A stretch of DNA of 41,466 nt from Stentor roeselii. Lineage: Eukaryota; Ciliophora; Heterotrichea; Heterotrichida; Stentoridae. Position numbers and translations under genes: made by a program. The notes under the pieces are model-generated. The model ran no database searches. It saw nothing but the letters and a program-made list of their open reading frames with translations, and had not been told where the DNA came from. Positions 8,985 through 31,472 of the stretch are shown one piece after another; position 1 is the stretch's first letter; each line of letters begins with the position of its first letter. The stretch is taken from NCBI GenBank assembly GCA_006503475.1, contig RSEH01000343.1:1-41466 (forward strand), written 5' to 3'.

Positions 8985-10862
8985 CTAATTAATCCTTAAA
9001 ATCTCTGCAACTTTTTCCTCAATTCTTTTAGCACTAATTCCATATTTCTGCAGCAACTCATTAGGCTGTCCACTTCTAGGTAATTCCCTAACATTCAACC
9101 CCCAAACCCTGACATTATCAGCAGCAAGTGCAGAACTGACAGCTTCAAAAATCCCTCCTTCAGGGTAATGATCTTCAACAGTAATTACTTTCCCTCCAGT
9201 CTGACGAGCAGCCTCTAAAATAGTATTCCTATCAACAGGTTTAACAGCAAACAAGTCAACCACCCTGACATGAGTTCCATTTTTTTTCAATTCATCCGCC
9301 GCTTTAAGAGCTTCATGCAGGGTGACTCCAGCAGCGACAATAGTGACAACATCATTATCACTTTTCCTAACAACATAACTTTTCGCTTCAAAAACTTGTG
9401 AATTTTCATACAAAACTGCAGTGGCAGGTCTAGAAGTCCTGATATAAGCAACTCCTTTATGATTCGCAGCAAGTTGCACAGCTCTATATGCTGAAACCGC
9501 ATCTGAAGGGTACAAAACGAGAGCTCCAGGAATACTTCTAAACATTGCCAAGTCCTCAAGTCCCATCTGACTTGACCCGTCTTCGCCAATAGAGACTCCA
9601 CAATGCGAGCCGACCATCTTGACGTTGCCTTCAGAAATCGCGGCGAGTCGGACCTGGTCGAAGGTCCTGCTGAAAAAAGCAGCGAAAGTGGAACAAAACG
9701 GGATCCACCCTCGAGTACTCAAGCCGAGGGCAGTTCCGATCATGTTCTGTTCAGCGACGAAGCATTCAACGAAGCGTTTCGGGTAAGTCAGTTGAAAGCC
9801 TTGAGACATGGTTGAATTTTTAGTGTCTCCATCGAGGCCGACTATTCTCGCATCAGACCCGAGCGCTTTGAGTCCATCGCCGTAGGCGTTTCTCGTCGCG
9901 ACTTTACTGGACCTGTCGTAGTTCGGCAAGGGTTGGCTTATCGCGTCTCTGGGCAAGGGTGGAGCTGCTGAAGACCTCGGAGGTGTTGTTGTGGGTTTTG
10001 AGTTTCCTTGGATTTTCTGTTTAAGTTGCTGGATCACTCCTGCCGCCTTGTCGCCTAAAGGCTTTCCATGCCAGTTCGGCAGGTTTTCAATACCTTCGAA
10101 GTCTCGGCCTTTGAAGGTTTTCGCAATGATGGCTGTTGGAGAACCACTCGAGTTTCGGGCAGTGTTGAAAGCGGCGACTATTTCATCTACGGAGTGTCCA
10201 TCAATCACAATTGTTTTCCATCCGAAAGCCTCGGCTCTGGCCCTGTAGGCTTGAATGTCATGTTGGAACATCGTCGGGTCGCTTTGGCCCAGTCTGTTGA
10301 TGTCGAAGATGGCGATCATGTTGTCCAGTTTGTAATGACTCGCGAAGTTCATCGCTTCCCAGACGCTGCCTTCGGCAGACTCAGCGTCTCCCATGATTGT
10401 GAAGACTTTGGCAGAGGACTGTTCCAGGTACTTGACACTGTAGGCCATTCCACAGGCTGCTGACAGTCCCTGCCCCAAGGAGCCTGTCGCGATGTCGATG
10501 AAGTTCAGTCTTGGCGTCGGGTGGCCTTCAAGGTCTGAAGTGATTTTCCGAAGGTTCTGCAATTCGCTTGTTGGGAAGAGACCTGCCTCGGCCCATGCTG
10601 CGTAAAGAATGGGAGCCGCGTGGCCTTTGGAAAGAACCAACTTGTCGTTTGAACTGCACTTTGGGTCGGAGACTTTCAAGTGCATTCCAGATGGGTGGAA
10701 AAACAACACGGAAAGCATCTCAGCCACTGATGAACAGGATGTTGGATGGCCTGAGTTTGAAGCGTTGGTCGATTCTATTGCGTGGATTCGCAAACGAGCT
10801 GCCATATCACGAAGCGACTGGAAATTCGATGAAGAGAATAAACGGTTCAGAGATCTCATCAT
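8985..10862 (-). CDS. tkt: Transketolase
   Basis: A complete 625-residue transketolase (thiamine diphosphate enzyme of the non-oxidative pentose phosphate pathway; two-carbon transfer between sugar phosphates). It aligns along its length with the animal-type enzyme of about 623 residues: SGHPTS (38-43), LSKGHAAPILYA (77-88), GHP, GSLGQGL (127-133), the cofactor motif, DINRLGQSDP, GDTKNST, VAEQNMIG with the catalytic Glu, STFAAFF, HCGVSIGEDG, YIRTSRP and EDHYPEGG. The cofactor motif reads GDA (158-160) instead of the usual GDG. The N-terminus carries about 13 extra residues rich in Arg/Ser/Leu/Phe, possibly a mitochondrial presequence. The middle of the gene is much richer in G/C-ending codons than its neighbours, which fits high expression rather than transfer. 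Two ATGs are adjacent (10862, 10859). Stop TAA. Confidence 0.97.
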   Translation of the reverse strand: MMRSLNRLFSSSNFQSLRDMAARLRIHAIESTNASNSGHPTSCSSVAEMLSVLFFHPSGMHLKVSDPKCSSNDKLVLSKGHAAPILYAAWAEAGLFPTSELQNLRKITSDLEGHPTPRLNFIDIATGSLGQGLSAACGMAYSVKYLEQSSAKVFTIMGDAESAEGSVWEAMNFASHYKLDNMIAIFDINRLGQSDPTMFQHDIQAYRARAEAFGWKTIVIDGHSVDEIVAAFNTARNSSGSPTAIIAKTFKGRDFEGIENLPNWHGKPLGDKAAGVIQQLKQKIQGNSKPTTTPPRSSAAPPLPRDAISQPLPNYDRSSKVATRNAYGDGLKALGSDARIVGLDGDTKNSTMSQGFQLTYPKRFVECFVAEQNMIGTALGLSTRGWIPFCSTFAAFFSRTFDQVRLAAISEGNVKMVGSHCGVSIGEDGSSQMGLEDLAMFRSIPGALVLYPSDAVSAYRAVQLAANHKGVAYIRTSRPATAVLYENSQVFEAKSYVVRKSDNDVVTIVAAGVTLHEALKAADELKKNGTHVRVVDLFAVKPVDRNTILEAARQTGGKVITVEDHYPEGGIFEAVSSALAADNVRVWGLNVRELPRSGQPNELLQKYGISAKRIEEKVAEILRIN

Positions 10863-10969
10863 TTTTATTCACATGAATCATTTGATGGAGTCACTTTTGG
10901 CCAGGATTAATAAAGTAAGGGATTTTAAGGTTTATTGTTTAATAGAATTTTTTTGAATAGTGTTAGATA
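10863..10969. promoter_or_regulatory. Shared divergent promoter, 107 bp
   Basis: The only DNA between transketolase (minus) and the RPB8 gene (plus), so both promoters lie here or inside the genes. No clear TATAAATG on either side: the starts read AATAAAAATG (transketolase) and TTAGATAATG (RPB8). Confidence 0.55.
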
Positions 10970-11419
10970 ATGGGAGATTTAGGTGGAAGTTCAATCCTCT
11001 TGGAAGATACACTTCAAGTCTCAGCAGTAGACCGAGAAGGGAAAATGTTTCAAAGAGTTTCAAGAGTAGAAGGCTCAAGTCAGCTAAACGAGGTCCAAGT
11101 GACTTTAGACGTGCACAGCGAACTTTACCCAATGGAAGTCGGTCAGTCCCACTCACTAGTGATAGCCTCTTCTCTATCCTTAGACGGTTCAGAAAACAAA
11201 GGAAGTTACAACATCCACGAGAACCATTCAAACACTTTATTAGGAAAGTACTCTTATTGCATGTATGGCAAGATTTTCAGACACTCGATGGAAAAAAACC
11301 AGCTCGTCGTGCACATCTCTTTCGGAGGACTGCTGATGACCATCGCTGGCCAACCGACAGACCTGGCACAGCTGGAGCCTGACTCTTATGTTTATCTGCT
11401 GCTAAAGAAACTTTTATAA
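10970..11419 (+). CDS. RPB8: RNA polymerase subunit RPB8 (shared by Pol I, II, III)
   Basis: A 149-residue protein matching the eukaryotic RPB8/POLR2H subunit in length and over its whole length: the N-terminal ILLEDTLQV-x4-REGKMFQRVSRVEG, the LDVHSELYPMEVGQ-x4-LVIASSLSLDG block, YSYCMYGKIFR, and the C-terminal ISFGGLLMTIAG with DSYVYLLLKKL. It forms an OB-like fold within all three nuclear polymerases. The ATG immediately precedes the conserved region. It is divergent from transketolase and converges on a SIAH-like gene with only 26 bp between the two stop codons. Confidence 0.95.
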   Translation: MGDLGGSSILLEDTLQVSAVDREGKMFQRVSRVEGSSQLNEVQVTLDVHSELYPMEVGQSHSLVIASSLSLDGSENKGSYNIHENHSNTLLGKYSYCMYGKIFRHSMEKNQLVVHISFGGLLMTIAGQPTDLAQLEPDSYVYLLLKKLL

Positions 11420-11445
11420 TAGTTAGAATTCTAATACAGGGTTAT

Positions 11446-12216
11446 TCAGACATTCGAGGACTCGATCAACTTCACCTTTATCGCTAGTTTCTTGTAACCT
11501 TCTTCTAGACCTTCTGCTGGCTCGAGTAAGTATTTTTCAGCTACGGCGATACTGATGTTGAAAGGTAAGCAGGTGTAGTGGATCCTTGCTTGCTTTACTG
11601 GTAGGGTTTGGATTGTGAAACTTATACAGCATTGGTCTTTTTTAGTTGAGAGTTGCATTGATTGCCGCTTGTTACCGATGTGGTAGACGTAGAGATAAAA
11701 TGTTTCACCGTCACTTTTACTTTTGTTTAAGATTTGGATCTCCCCGAATTTCCAGATGCTGTATCCCCAGTCAGCATTTTTCCAAGTCTTCGAGTTCCAC
11801 CCTCTGACCCCTCCTCTGGTAGGCATTTCAAACTCTTTTACTGAATGTTTAGATTTTAAGTGTTCAACAAGTCCTTCACCTTCCCAGGTGCAATCTGCGA
11901 AAACGCAGCCCATGTAAGGGTTATAGTCACAAACCGACTCATGCGCCTTTTTGTTGATTAAAGAAACCCTGGTCCCACAGCCGATGAACTTGCAGACAGT
12001 TTCAATAGAATTAAGAATATGTTCAAGGTTAATATTTCGGCACTTCCCGAGGATTGGAGATTGACATTCTGTGCAGTCTTTAACTTTTTCGAAGCAAGAC
12101 CCACAAAATGAGTGGCCTTGGGTGCATTGGTAGATTGGTGGCGAAAAGAATGAAAGGCATATTGGACATTTTAGAGAATCTGAGAGTAAATGAGTCAAGT
12201 GCAGGGTTTCTTCCAT
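11446..12216 (-). CDS. SIAH/Seven-in-absentia-type E3 ubiquitin ligase
   Basis: A 256-residue E3 ligase. The RING has Cys/His at C17, C20, C31, H35, C38, C41, C48, C51 (CPIC...CTQGHSFCGSC...CTEC). The SIAH-type double zinc finger follows: C75, C80, H92, C96 and C104, C109, H119, H124. The remainder (about 130-250) fits the substrate-binding beta-sandwich of SIAH proteins, with a WGYSIWKFG-like strand. By family it recruits an E2 and ubiquitinates specific targets. The start lies in TATAAATG (minus strand; TATAA at 12217-12221). The stop is TGA, one of three TGA stops in the window. Convergent with RPB8. Confidence 0.9.
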   Translation of the reverse strand: MEETLHLTHLLSDSLKCPICLSFFSPPIYQCTQGHSFCGSCFEKVKDCTECQSPILGKCRNINLEHILNSIETVCKFIGCGTRVSLINKKAHESVCDYNPYMGCVFADCTWEGEGLVEHLKSKHSVKEFEMPTRGGVRGWNSKTWKNADWGYSIWKFGEIQILNKSKSDGETFYLYVYHIGNKRQSMQLSTKKDQCCISFTIQTLPVKQARIHYTCLPFNISIAVAEKYLLEPAEGLEEGYKKLAIKVKLIESSNV

Positions 12217-24491: not shown

Positions 24492-25862
24492 TTAAAATCT
24501 AGTCTGTTTGTTAGGGGTAACATAAGCAGCTTCTCTCAACGGTGTATTCCTCAAAGGCATGCTTTTTAATGGAGATTCTAGTCTGGTTGGAATCAAGTCT
24601 TCACTTCTAAACTTCCCAGGTGAGTTCCTCAAAGGACTAGAAGGCAAGATATCAGTTCTTCTAGAAGGTGAAAAAGTAGCAGGTTTTCCAGGGGAGACTC
24701 TAGAGTTTCTAAGTGGAATTGAGTTAACAAAAGAAGACTCAAGGTAACTTCTACGAGGACTTGATTGAATCATAAGTCTTGCAGGAGAACTTCTCAAAGA
24801 AGGTGATCTTCTTAACGGAGAAGAAGCCCTTAAAGGAGAAGAGTTCCTCAAAGGAGAAGAGTTTCTCAAAGGAGAAGAATTTCGTACTGGAGATCTCAGT
24901 CCTGATGATTTCGTCGGTGAGATATCGTAGCAGCTTAAAGTCCTCGCTGGAGAATATCGATAATTAGTACTTGTGATCAGTTGTCTCGAAGGTGACATGT
25001 TGAATGTTTTCGGTGGAGATGATTGTCTTAACGGCGACGAGTTTCGAGCAGTCGAAAATGATTGAATTCTTGAAGCATTGTAAACTTTACTAGGCGAACT
25101 TGTCGGGGATGACTGTCGTAAAGGTGATGAAGCTCGAACAGGTGAATAAACCTGAGGTCTTGAAGCAGAGTAAATTTTACTTGGCGAACTTACTCTTCCA
25201 CGTTTCGGCATCACAGAGTCAACATACTCGACATAGTTCAAAACTCCATCACTATCACAGTCAAGTCTTCTAAACACCCCGTTCAATTCAGACTCAGTAA
25301 GAGCAAGACTATGTCTTGAAAAAAGTCCTCTCAAAGCAGCTCTGTCAATAAAAGAGCTTCTCAAATAGTCTAAAACTCTGAAACTGTCAAGAAGTCCGAA
25401 GTCACTTTGAATTGTGATGTCGCATCTTTGGCCTTCAACGTCTTGCTGGAGTTTCAGTTCAAGTTCTATCAGTCTCAGTAGTCCCAACTGAGTCTCGAGG
25501 GTCACAGAGCTGCTGGGAGTCCTCAAAGAAACCGAATCTCGCAATAACTGGTTCGTGCTTGGAAGGACAAATGATGAAAACTCGTTTATGGAAAGACTAC
25601 CGTCAAGGTTTGAGTCGTATTGAGATATAAGCAGCTGAATCAATGATATCTCGGAGTCTACTCGGTTCTTTCTTAAGAAATCTCGAATGTTTAGAACTGA
25701 AATTGAACCTTTCACATCTGAGTCTAAGAACCTGAAAGATGTGTAAAGCTCGAAGTCGAAGTTTTGGCAGAGCTGTTCTCGTGCTCGCTCAATCTCGGCT
25801 TCTCTTGTCCCTATCATGTAAAACAATTGAGCGATTTTTCTTTCCGTTATTCTGCCTAACAT
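24492..25862 (-). CDS. EF-hand protein with long SPLR-repeat tail
   Basis: A 456-residue protein. The first 220 residues are helical with calmodulin-like EF-hand loops: 47-58 (DSDVKG, imperfect), 83-94 (DSNLDG, canonical, E94) and 201-212 (DCDSDG, canonical, E212); a fourth around 165-176 is degenerate. The C-terminal half (about 224-450) is low complexity: more than a dozen Ser-Ser-Pro-Leu/Val/Ala-Arg units plus related SPSK and SPGK words, good sites for proline-directed kinases and a likely microtubule- or filament-binding surface. By layout it may be a Ca2+-responsive cytoskeletal protein (inference), apt for a contractile ciliate. ATG 25862 follows a run of A. Stop TAA. Confidence 0.82.
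   Translation of the reverse strand: MLGRITERKIAQLFYMIGTREAEIERAREQLCQNFDFELYTSFRFLDSDVKGSISVLNIRDFLRKNRVDSEISLIQLLISQYDSNLDGSLSINEFSSFVLPSTNQLLRDSVSLRTPSSSVTLETQLGLLRLIELELKLQQDVEGQRCDITIQSDFGLLDSFRVLDYLRSSFIDRAALRGLFSRHSLALTESELNGVFRRLDCDSDGVLNYVEYVDSVMPKRGRVSSPSKIYSASRPQVYSPVRASSPLRQSSPTSSPSKVYNASRIQSFSTARNSSPLRQSSPPKTFNMSPSRQLITSTNYRYSPARTLSCYDISPTKSSGLRSPVRNSSPLRNSSPLRNSSPLRASSPLRRSPSLRSSPARLMIQSSPRRSYLESSFVNSIPLRNSRVSPGKPATFSPSRRTDILPSSPLRNSPGKFRSEDLIPTRLESPLKSMPLRNTPLREAAYVTPNKQTRF
24796..24893 (-). repeat. Tandem 18-nt coding repeats (SSPLRN units)
   Basis: Five or so near-identical 18-nt units around AAAGGAGAAGA (plus strand) encode consecutive SSPLRN/SSPLRA units of the EF-hand protein. 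The 18-nt period keeps frame, so units can be gained or lost without harm. Confidence 0.75.
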
Positions 25863-26556
25863 TTTTTTAAATGGTAGTTTTAGGACACTAGGAGCTGATG
25901 TTTGGATTATTCTGAATCCTGGGGATATGGAAGATCGAATTTTTTTCGGGAGGATTTATTATTGATGGGTTTATTAACATGAAGTGATTTTTAAAGTGGT
26001 CTTTATATAGCAATTCAATATTATAATTTTGATTAAAAATTGATTTTAGGTTATAATTTTAAGTTTTTCGATGAAAGACTTGATTGATCAAGCCTTATCA
26101 ATGAACTTTTATTAATTTGACTCTAGTTATAAGTTTATCTATTTTATTATGAAAATCCCTAATAATGTTTTCAATATATTCAATAAAGAAACAAGAAAGC
26201 TATAATAATCATTTGACAAAAGACAAACTTATTTATCTTAGGTTGCTTAATGTCATTCTTAAGATTTAATATAGACAAAAACACAGATTTCGATAAAATT
26301 TACACGTCAAATATAAAATCTTAGAAAGTAAATCAGGAAAAATATTTAAAACATATAAAGTATTCATGTTTTTGATTAAACTTCAAACTAATATTAATCC
26401 TAATGTAATAAAATATAACTCAGATCTAATTTTATCTTATTTACTTGATACAACTCTCAATAATATTACCCAAAGTTTCCAATAAATTCCAGTTGCTCTA
26501 AATCACTAAAAAAACTAGATATGTTTTGTATATTTTCCCGACGTGGTAGCTTATAA
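25863..26556. promoter_or_regulatory. Divergent spacer, 694 bp
   Basis: AT-rich region between the EF-hand gene (minus) and the acyltransferase gene (plus). TATAA (26552-26556) abuts the acyltransferase ATG. No coding frame, repeat or RNA gene is visible. Confidence 0.45.
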
Positions 26557-29481: not shown

Positions 29482-30452
29482 CTAACTAGAAGTGAAGCCC
29501 CATTCTTCATAGCCACACTCCGGGTAGCGGCTCAGCCATTTTCTTGTCTTGGGGTCTTTAGGCTTGGTGGTAGAGAGCTCACGGTCTTTGGTCTCCAGCT
29601 TCCAAACTTCCACTACATAGAAGATACAGACTTCTATATCCTTTACCTAAATGTAGGTTACTCCCTTCAATGTAGGTTACAAGCTTCGTAGTAGGCTACT
29701 GACTTCGTTGTAAGTTACAATCTTTTTCGAAGATTACCTCAATATTGATTACAAAAAAAACAATATTTTCCATCGTTGGAAAATAAGAGTTCTCGATACG
29801 AATCTTGTATCTCTTCTTCTGACCAATCCGAAGCATGTAATTGATCGCCAAAGTTATCTCATAAAAATTCAATCTTTTGATCTTTATTCATGGCTTGAAG
29901 TTCTGCTTATGTATAACCTTTCGCTCTGTTCCTTTTCCTTTCAATTTCCCTTTCTTTTTCTTCTTGAGCTGCCAAGGATTGTTTAAGACTCCAAATATAT
30001 TGGTCCTTTTCATAAATTTCTCGTTTTAAATCACTTATTTTGCTTAGTGTGCTGATTTTTAAATCATTTGAGATTTCTCCTACCTCAGCTACTAAAAAAG
30101 AGATTCTTTCTTGTGAAAATAGATATTCTTCTAATTCGGAGATGTTCTTCATATTCCTTGTTGCTTTTTTAAGGTTCTTTATTGCTTCACTTGAGGCCTT
30201 TTTCAAAGCTATAATTAATTTTTCAGTTTCATTAACAATCTGAACAATATAATTTTGAATTTTCGAATTCAAATCACTCAAAGATTCAATATTCAAGTCC
30301 TTATTGGTGATAGATATAAGATAGTGATCTGGTTCATTTTCATGAGTATTTGAGTGATCATTGCACCAATATGTCATTGTAGGGCAGCCTGTACAATAAT
30401 TTCTGATTTCGAGAGGACAGTCATTGTAAGAACAGGACATATTTATAGACAT
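29482..30452 (-). CDS. B-box-like zinc finger, coiled-coil protein; interrupted C-terminus
   Basis: The first part (30452 down to 29918) is a clean frame: a zinc finger with C7, C12, C20, C23, C30, H33, H37, H43, then a coiled coil of about 120 residues (RING-less TRIM-like layout). A 15-nt intron (29903-29917) then removes a TAA and continues the frame as KELQAMNKDQKIEFL. A TGA follows at 29859-29861 that no GT...AG intron removes. Beyond it the same frame goes on as DNFGDQLHASDWSEEEIQDSYRELLFSNDGKYCFF up to the intron-like array at 29631-29752, and after the array in the same effective frame to TAG at 29482-29484 (ending CGYEEWGFTSS). Either a recent pseudogene with one nonsense change (CGA to TGA would do), or TGA is read through. 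Second ATG has context TATAAATATG. Confidence 0.6.
29631..29752 (-). repeat. Array of seven tandem 15/16-nt intron-like units
   Basis: Read on the minus strand, seven consecutive segments each begin GTA and end AG: 29738-29752 (15 nt), 29722-29737 (16), 29703-29718 (16), 29684-29699 (16), 29665-29680 (16), 29647-29661 (15), 29631-29646 (16). Spacers are 0, 3, 3, 3, 3 and 0 nt. The middle ones share the core GTAACCTACATTGAAG and form a 19-nt tandem repeat. They contain stops in all frames. Removing all seven (110 nt) or the whole block (122 nt) both leave the flanking frames in phase. It may be one composite intron or a chain of introns with 3-nt exons. Confidence 0.75.
29903..29917 (-). other. 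15-nt intron in the zinc finger gene
   Basis: Minus-strand GTTATACATAAGCAG, GT...CAG, 15 nt. It carries the TAA that ends the first open part; removal joins ...KRNRAK to ELQAMNK in frame. Confidence 0.65.
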
Positions 30453-30678: not shown

Positions 30679-31472
30679 ATGGCAAACAGAAAGAATTCCA
30701 CAAACTATATTGAGACTCTAGACAAAGATAGAAGTGGTTGATTTATTAGTTAAATGCTGTTTGATACCAAGCAGGCCCTATTAGTTAAATGACTAAAAAC
30801 AGACTTACAGACGTTACCAAAAAATCAGATGTTAAGAAGGAGAAAGTTCCAGGTTAAAAGAAGAAATCTGGAAGCTCGAATTCTTCTTAAAATAAAAAGG
30901 CCACAAAAAGTCATCAAGCAGCCTGTCTTCAAAGAAAAAATGTCACAAAAAATCATCAAGCAGCTCCTCTTCAAAGAAATTAGGAACTAGTCAAGCCCGA
31001 AGAAGAAAAGAAAGTCGAAGAAGTAAAAAGCCCTAATAATAAAAAGAAAGAAAAGATGTGTCTTTAATATCGTCTTAAGAGATTTCAGACAACAAATCTG
31101 ATGCGCTTGTCGTCTGTAAACTGAATAAGGTGAAGAATTTCTTGGCTCTTGTGTGCAAAGTCCTAGAAATCCCTGTGCTGAGTGACGCTGACTTCGAAAC
31201 CAAAGCCAGAGCTGCAAGTATTAAGAAAAAAACTTAAATTAGCAAATTCATCAAGGTGCTGAAAGCCTTGTTTCCCAGTGGAACTTACAGTGTCAAGCAG
31301 GTTAAACTGTTTGCAACGATATTCGTGAGAATTTCAAAAATATGAAGCCCAAAGAGTCCTGGGTAGTTATCATAGCTGCTTGAATTATGCCAACTGAAAA
31401 AGAATTCGATCATGACAAACTTGCCTCGCCCTTGGAAAAGCACTCAAGTACATCATTTTATGTAAGAGATAA
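30679..31472 (+). pseudogene. Relic of a Ser/Lys-rich protein gene
   Basis: Successive plus-strand frames read as protein but are broken. It begins MANRKNSTNYIETLDKDRSG (an EF-hand-like DKDRSG) with TGA and TAA soon after; then a low-complexity stretch in another frame (KKSSSSLSSKKKCHKKSSSS); then a domain SDALVVCKLNKVKNFLALVCK and ISKFIKVLKALFPSGTYS, split by one TAA (about 31226); then two frame changes, ENFKNMKPKESWVVIIAA with a TGA, and KALKYIIL before the final TAA. I count at least four stops and three frame changes. The family is not recognised. Confidence 0.5.

Follow-up and report, generated by a model that had tools for sequence, protein, structure and literature searches.

The array of short GTA...AG units on the minus strand of Stentor roeselii contig RSEH01000343.1 is very probably a run of eight consecutive spliceosomal introns, individually spliced and separated by exons of one codon, within a protein-coding gene. 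The layout of the array, its conservation, the open frame of the joined spacers and the position of an internal A are directly visible in the DNA, both in the window (the whole stretch of 41,466 nt that was analysed, contig C279) and in the assembly that was searched (44,391,514 bases in 522 contigs).

Gene model and layout of the array

The predicted gene is read on the minus strand and consists of the following putative features, given in order of reading.

29918..30452, minus strand: exon 1, N-terminal Cys-rich and coiled-coil-like part, MSINMSCSYNDCP...; 125 tblastn matches in its own genome
29903..29917, minus strand: ordinary intron, 15 nt, GTTATACATAAGCAG, A at position 10
29753..29902, minus strand: exon 2, ending ...SNDGKYCFF plus one T of a split codon, placed by block alignment
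29738..29752, minus strand: chain intron 1, 15 nt, GTAATCAATATTGAG
29722..29737, minus strand: chain intron 2, 16 nt, GTAATCTTCGAAAAAG, preceded by a zero-length exon
29719..29721, minus strand: one-codon exon ATT, T-AT giving Tyr (first joined codon Tyr in 53/53)
29703..29718, minus strand: chain intron 3, 16 nt, GTAACTTACAACGAAG
29700..29702, minus strand: one-codon exon TCA
29684..29699, minus strand: chain intron 4, 16 nt, GTAGCCTACTACGAAG
29681..29683, minus strand: one-codon exon CTT
29665..29680, minus strand: chain intron 5, 16 nt, GTAACCTACATTGAAG, with 18 exact genome copies on 10 contigs
29662..29664, minus strand: one-codon exon GGA
29647..29661, minus strand: chain intron 6, 15 nt, GTAACCTACATTTAG
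29631..29646, minus strand: chain intron 7, 16 nt, GTAAAGGATATAGAAG, preceded by a zero-length exon
29628..29630, minus strand: one-codon exon TCT
29613..29627, minus strand: chain intron 8, 15 nt, GTATCTTCTATGTAG, an open unit that could be read through
29482..29612, minus strand: last exon, ..EVWKLETKDRELSTTKPKDPKTRKWLSRYPECGYEEWGFTSS, stop TAG; 48 tblastn matches in its own genome, itself included

The chain spans 140 nt and its eight units measure 15, 16, 16, 16, 16, 15, 16 and 15 nt, with 0, ATT, TCA, CTT, GGA, 0 and TCT between them, which makes five exons of 3 nt and two junctions of zero length. The preliminary description recognized seven GTA...AG units, each 15 or 16 nt long, between 29752 and 29631, all of which are present with spacers of 0, 3, 3, 3, 3 and 0 nt, but it overlooked an eighth unit, GTATCTTCTATGTAG (29627-29613), which follows another 3-nt spacer. 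This unit had been taken as coding (CIFYVV) and is now parsed as an intron. The 19-nt period noted earlier is recovered by Tandem Repeats Finder at 29650-29687 and 29672-29724. The statement that the units carry stops in every frame holds only in part, as five of the eight break the frame through their length of 16 nt, while units 1, 6 and 8 are readable.

In the proposed mechanism, each of the 15-16 nt introns brings a donor and an acceptor of its own, together with a likely branch-point A (position 10, or 11 in two of the 16-nt introns), and the 3-nt exons would be cut in phase 1, such that the last letter of one joins the first two letters of the next. The predicted spliced mRNA, TTTTTT-T-ATT-TCA-CTT-GGA-TCT-TGGAAGTTTGG, would encode ...FF-Y-F-T-W-I-L-EVWKLETKD..., a short loop flanked by two conserved blocks. 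The predicted spliced proteins of the paralogs align through the chain, with a Tyr, a variable loop and a mostly Leu or Met residue followed by an xVWNLETK-like block. The DGKY..VWNLETK blocks may resemble a WD40 hairpin, and the N-terminus a B-box. A Pfam search with the joined proteins returned no domain above cut-off, the nearest being PF14710 in L009 (19.2 bits vs a cut-off of 24).

Exon 2 of the window gene contains an in-frame TGA, read as Trp. A TGA at a position where most paralogs have TGG is seen in two genes, the window gene and L045, and UGA appears to encode Trp in this genome, these two cases being the only direct evidence on the genetic code. They agree with the use of UGA for Trp described for Blepharisma stoltei (PMC9942806).

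At the site of the ordinary upstream intron, a 15-nt GT-AG solution exists in 15 of the 22 paralogs that need an intron, nine more genes being open there, and an A at position 10 (A10) is present in 12/12 distinct sequences. The same test gives rival solutions of 12 nt in 8 and of 24 nt in 12, and controls with other end letters never exceed 5 for lengths of 39 nt or less but reach up to 13 at 60 nt. This family-based test replaced an attempt to locate ordinary introns in the window by linking open frames, which gave noise at every length.

A gene family with chains of short units

The flanking frames have many homologs within the same genome. The DNA around the array has 50 genome matches, the downstream protein block 48 and the upstream part 125, each including itself. 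In a family sample of 66 fetched stretches plus the window, three blocks occur in constant order, and at the 24 loci (the window and 23 others) where both flanking blocks are found, the gap is wholly or mostly filled by such units. The array is a feature of a gene family and no one-off event. Near-identical members such as L052_1419 and L053 may be alleles, so the family counts are not wholly independent.

Chains could be parsed at 53 of the 64 places with the downstream (C) block, with 5-33 introns each (median 11), leaving 11 without a parsed chain. Chains are plainly present at two unparsed places, L058 and L017, the former holding about 50 units in runs of 18, 3, 19, 3 and 7 split by longer stretches. 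L062 shows four units upstream of the C block before its contig terminates, and eight units follow the upstream (N) block of L038, whose C match is weak. No chain of at least four units is found at the site in L034_18, L037, L040, L041, L046, L051 and L072, of which L034_18 is truncated where the sampled stretch ends and others may be fragments.

Within 268,671 nt, chains of at least four units occur only at family loci, upstream of the C block or downstream of the N block (L038, L077); these loci had been chosen for the family, and the positions were compared with the blocks by eye. The same 268,671 nt reversed contain no chain of at least four units, and neither does the remainder of the window. 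A genome search for further runs, as recommended earlier, yielded 129 matches to a motif of two units followed by a third GTA, compared to 9 for the reversed pattern, the places behind the 129 matches being enumerated for the first ones only. Among the matches listed, those at C294:34227, C339:249889 and C383:174574 (G000) lie outside the protein matches of the family and could be chains in other genes. The comparison bears on introners, dispersed intron families in which one intron has been copied to new sites in unrelated genes.

In L056, L060, L063, L065 and L068, the chain-bearing C-terminal module stands behind a different, long coiled-coil-like N-terminal part, and L067 is grouped with these genes through its DNA likeness to L068. 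Since the C-terminal module is joined to different N-terminal parts, it seems to have been shuffled between genes.

Genomic setting

The mean G+C content of the window is ~34%, ranging from 24 to 46% per 2-kb stretch, and reaches up to 45.5% in 10001-12000 compared to 24-39% in the other 2-kb stretches. For Blepharisma stoltei, a genome of 41 Mb with 66% AT is given in PMC9942806. Two further repeats are found in the window. An 18-nt tandem repeat of 5.4 copies, AGAATTTCTCAAAGGAGA, at 24786-24883 lies inside a long minus-strand open frame (24492-25955), its period being a multiple of three, and a 42-nt direct repeat of two copies with 86% matches is located at 30894-30979, upstream of the gene.

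Spacing of the units

A greedy left-to-right scan of 35 family regions, in which codon spacing is not preferred, finds 364 units covering 77.6% of 7274 nt, compared to a mean of 54 units and 11.5% coverage in single-letter shuffles of the same regions. The spacers are multiples of three in 305 of 329 cases, with 212 of 3 nt, 58 of 0 nt, 23 of 6 nt and 7 of 9 nt (300/329 for these four lengths). The whole-region lengths, by contrast, use all remainders modulo 3 (15/12/8). As most spacers are multiples of three and the region lengths are not, it is the units that undergo small length changes, the spacers only rarely. A parser that permitted 14-17 nt gave 608 units in 44 regions, of which 310 measure 15 nt, 216 measure 16 nt, 47 measure 14 nt and 35 measure 17 nt.

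These figures bear on the reading of the array as a single long intron of 122 or 140 nt, built like a minisatellite and with spacers that are never exons. Direct joining of the flanks would keep the frame here, given that the spacers sum to a multiple of three. A single intron, however, offers no reason why spacers should be multiples of a codon when the total length is not, and we consider it improbable. The 122-nt block put forward earlier as an alternative likewise leaves the codon-like behaviour of the spacers unexplained.

Joined spacers behave as codons

When the spacers of 25 clean genes are joined, the predicted frame contains 0 stops in 250 codons, compared to 9 and 26 in 225 codons for the other two phases (TGA included). 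These genes were drawn from 34 parsed ones, nine with longer or odd exons having been excluded, with a first parser that favoured exons of 3 and 6 nt. In 250 codons, 13.6 TAA or TAG would be expected from letter shuffling and 11.0 from reassortment of the spacers, and 0 of 5000 trials of either kind were as low, although the shared ancestry of the paralogs means that these shuffle figures overstate independence. TGA is also absent from the 250 joined codons, where shuffling predicts about 5.5, although UGA should be permitted.

A second parser, which accepts units of 14-17 nt and does not favour multiples of three, places 46 of 53 chains in frame, where chance would give one in three. Its joined frame contains one TAA or TAG in 583 codons, whereas the two alternative phases give 7 and 26 in 537. 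In 53/53 cases the joined sequence begins with a Tyr codon, TAT or TAC, and the first exon in 44 regions is ATT (36), ATC (4), ACT (3) or ATTATT (1). Phase 1 accounts for 554 of 581 introns. Neither the lack of stops in the 250 joined codons nor the invariant Tyr is explained by a single long intron.

Inclusion of the 3-nt exons in the mRNA is what we infer from this codon constraint. Nearly all exons being multiples of three, the skipping of any one would also keep the frame, which puts inclusion beyond proof from sequence alone. Furthermore, 217 of 581 units, including window units 1, 6 and 8, are individually readable as coding without a stop or shift. In 9 of the 46 in-frame genes, the last unit of the chain would bring in a stop or shift the frame and must therefore be removed; it is open in the other 37, the window gene included.

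The seven out-of-frame parses (L013, L056, L057, L063, L071 and two in L076) may be pseudogenes, assembly errors or wrong parses. Such frame-broken members, and the lack of a Pfam domain above cut-off in the joined proteins, would fit an array that is non-coding or decayed, with the upstream gene ending at the array, the downstream frame a leftover and the repeat a minisatellite in the 3' region. This is very improbable in view of the 48 protein-level matches of the downstream block, which follow the array in the same order, and of an N-block dN/dS of 0.28-0.92 that is below 1 in 36/36 pairs of nine paralogs.

Intron-like features of the units

Of 544 distinct units, 473 carry A10, compared to an average A frequency of 0.32 at positions 5-9, 11 and 12. 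Among the 82 distinct units of 15 nt, A10 is 96% conserved and there is little information at positions 5-9 and 11-13. Window units 2 and 4, both of 16 nt, lack A10 and have A11 instead, as read from the letters. In Stentor, 92.81% of 8806 introns are reported to be 15 nt and the remainder 16 nt, and 90.9% of all introns have the branch-point A at position 10, a further 5.0%, all of 16 nt, having it at position 11 (PMC9505925). The introns of Blepharisma stoltei, where UGA encodes Trp, are mostly 15 and 16 bp (PMC9942806). All eight window units have the length of these tiny heterotrich introns and the GT...AG ends, and the candidate branch-point A occupies position 10 in most family units and position 11 in units 2 and 4 of the window. 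A single long intron leaves the presence of A10 in most units of every length unexplained, and its size is at odds with the 15-16 nt reported for heterotrich introns (PMC9505925; "predominantly" in PMC9942806).

The parsed units include 82 of 608 with a length of 14 or 17 nt and 3 of 608 with a GCA donor. Some units of L039, L055, L069, L075, L076, L082 and L084 can be fitted by the parsers as 14-nt introns only, with A10 in 39 of 44 distinct 14-nt units; if these are introns, they fall below the 15 nt reported for Stentor. In L074 and L083, 15- and 16-nt GC...AG units occur where the frame needs an intron.

Taken together, the spacers, the stops, the putative branch-point A and the paralogs support the earlier suggestion of an intron chain with one-codon micro-exons, amended from seven introns to eight. 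Removal by a route other than the spliceosome, through DNA elimination of internal eliminated sequences (IES) or ribosomal bypassing, seems hardly credible. Blepharisma does discard many DNA segments during development of its macronucleus (PMC9942806, PMC9942856). The array, however, is retained in an assembly in which three of the fetched family loci carry contig-end repeats of CCCTAACA, the telomere repeat reported for Blepharisma (PMC9942806), so that it is probably somatic DNA that escaped elimination. Furthermore, the intron ends and the conserved A10 of the units speak against both elimination and bypassing.

Abutting putative introns

The first two units abut in all 44 parsed regions, the acceptor of one being directly followed by the donor of the next, and a second abutting pair is located near the end of the chain in most of the 24 loci with both flanks. 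At the first pair, A10 is present in 38/38 distinct first introns and in 33/37 distinct second introns. Two branch points would be superfluous in a single 30-nt intron, which makes stepwise removal likelier, and the abutting introns are most likely taken out in two steps, each half using its own putative branch-point A. The nested intron considered in the preliminary description does not fit this arrangement: by inspection, the units abut as AG/GT with complete signals on both sides.

Change of the chains and of the protein loop

Chain length differs between close paralogs, with 8 introns in the window gene, 16 in L010 and 12 in L009 at an N-block dS of 0.18-0.31. Exact repeats of differing unit sizes are found, for example in L067 (29 introns), where a 15-nt intron recurs together with ATGATT, and in L058, where one recurs together with TTG. 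Adjacent units are modestly more alike (0.413 differences per site) than distant units of the same chain (0.493), which lends moderate support to the earlier idea that an intron unit was duplicated in tandem. The repeat unit consists of an intron and one (or two) whole codons, so that duplication or loss leaves the frame intact, and tandem duplication or loss of units would alter the length of the loop by whole codons.

In 116 units, 16-nt GTAA introns that follow a 3-nt exon and were not selected for likeness, the exon triplets approach randomness (1.69-1.93 bits per site) and vary more than the free inner positions of the introns (0.75-1.37 bits). An initial comparison of 87 units was discarded, as these had been picked for intron likeness and intron variability was lowered by construction. 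Among 11 same-chain pairs with identical introns, the preceding exons are identical in none; the following exons are identical in some (L042, L013, L031, L067). This triplet variability could mean that the loop is under diversifying selection or that the introns were homogenised, and the two would look alike. That the chain is a device for safe change of the loop, where gain, loss or skipping of units is frame-neutral and alternative splicing could even act within one cell, is a rather doubtful suggestion.

Comparison with known systems

The units resemble the tiny introns of heterotrichs (Stentor coeruleus, PMC9505925; Blepharisma stoltei, PMC9942806) in their length of 15-16 nt, GT(A)...AG ends and A10. 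The portions of these sources consulted describe no chains, whereas the chains here comprise 5-33 successive introns (~50 in one gene) that are either contiguous or mostly a single codon apart, and units of 14 and 17 nt also seem to occur. The one-codon exons are comparable to microexons (3-30 nt), such as the 3-bp exon of Drosophila homothorax (PMC7392893), and at 3 nt lie well within the limit of 30 nt. Microexons, however, are described as one or a few per case, for example three in RPS24 (PMC11162997), whereas in these long chains the majority of exons measure one codon. The AG/GT juxtaposition with a zero-length exon, seen at the first pair, is shared with the ratchet points of recursive splicing, although these are described for long introns (PMC8605326, PMC5126111) and here two introns of ~15 nt abut. 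Several splicing reactions at one place are also known from stwintrons (PMC9024468, PMC12403724), in which, as these sources present them, an inner intron splits a splice signal of the outer one; the units of the chain lie side by side, and no inner intron interrupts an outer signal.

Intron chains with one-codon exons are not reported in the titles and abstract openings covered by the literature search, and the tiny-intron supplement of PMC9942806 could mention such cases. Single introns, micro-exons and abutting splice sites are known, and within the scope of this search their combination in a chain is new.

Implications

Gene finders and short-read aligners may miss such chains, and the genes that carry them are possibly mis-annotated. 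If confirmed in transcripts, the chains would represent an extreme exon-intron layout, with dozens of consecutive introns near the smallest size reported and with one-codon and zero-length exons between them. The finding would then bear on how the spliceosome handles 15-nt introns with neighbours 3 nt away and on the order in which these are removed, as well as on intron gain through tandem duplication, and it would reveal a frame-safe route to varying a protein loop.
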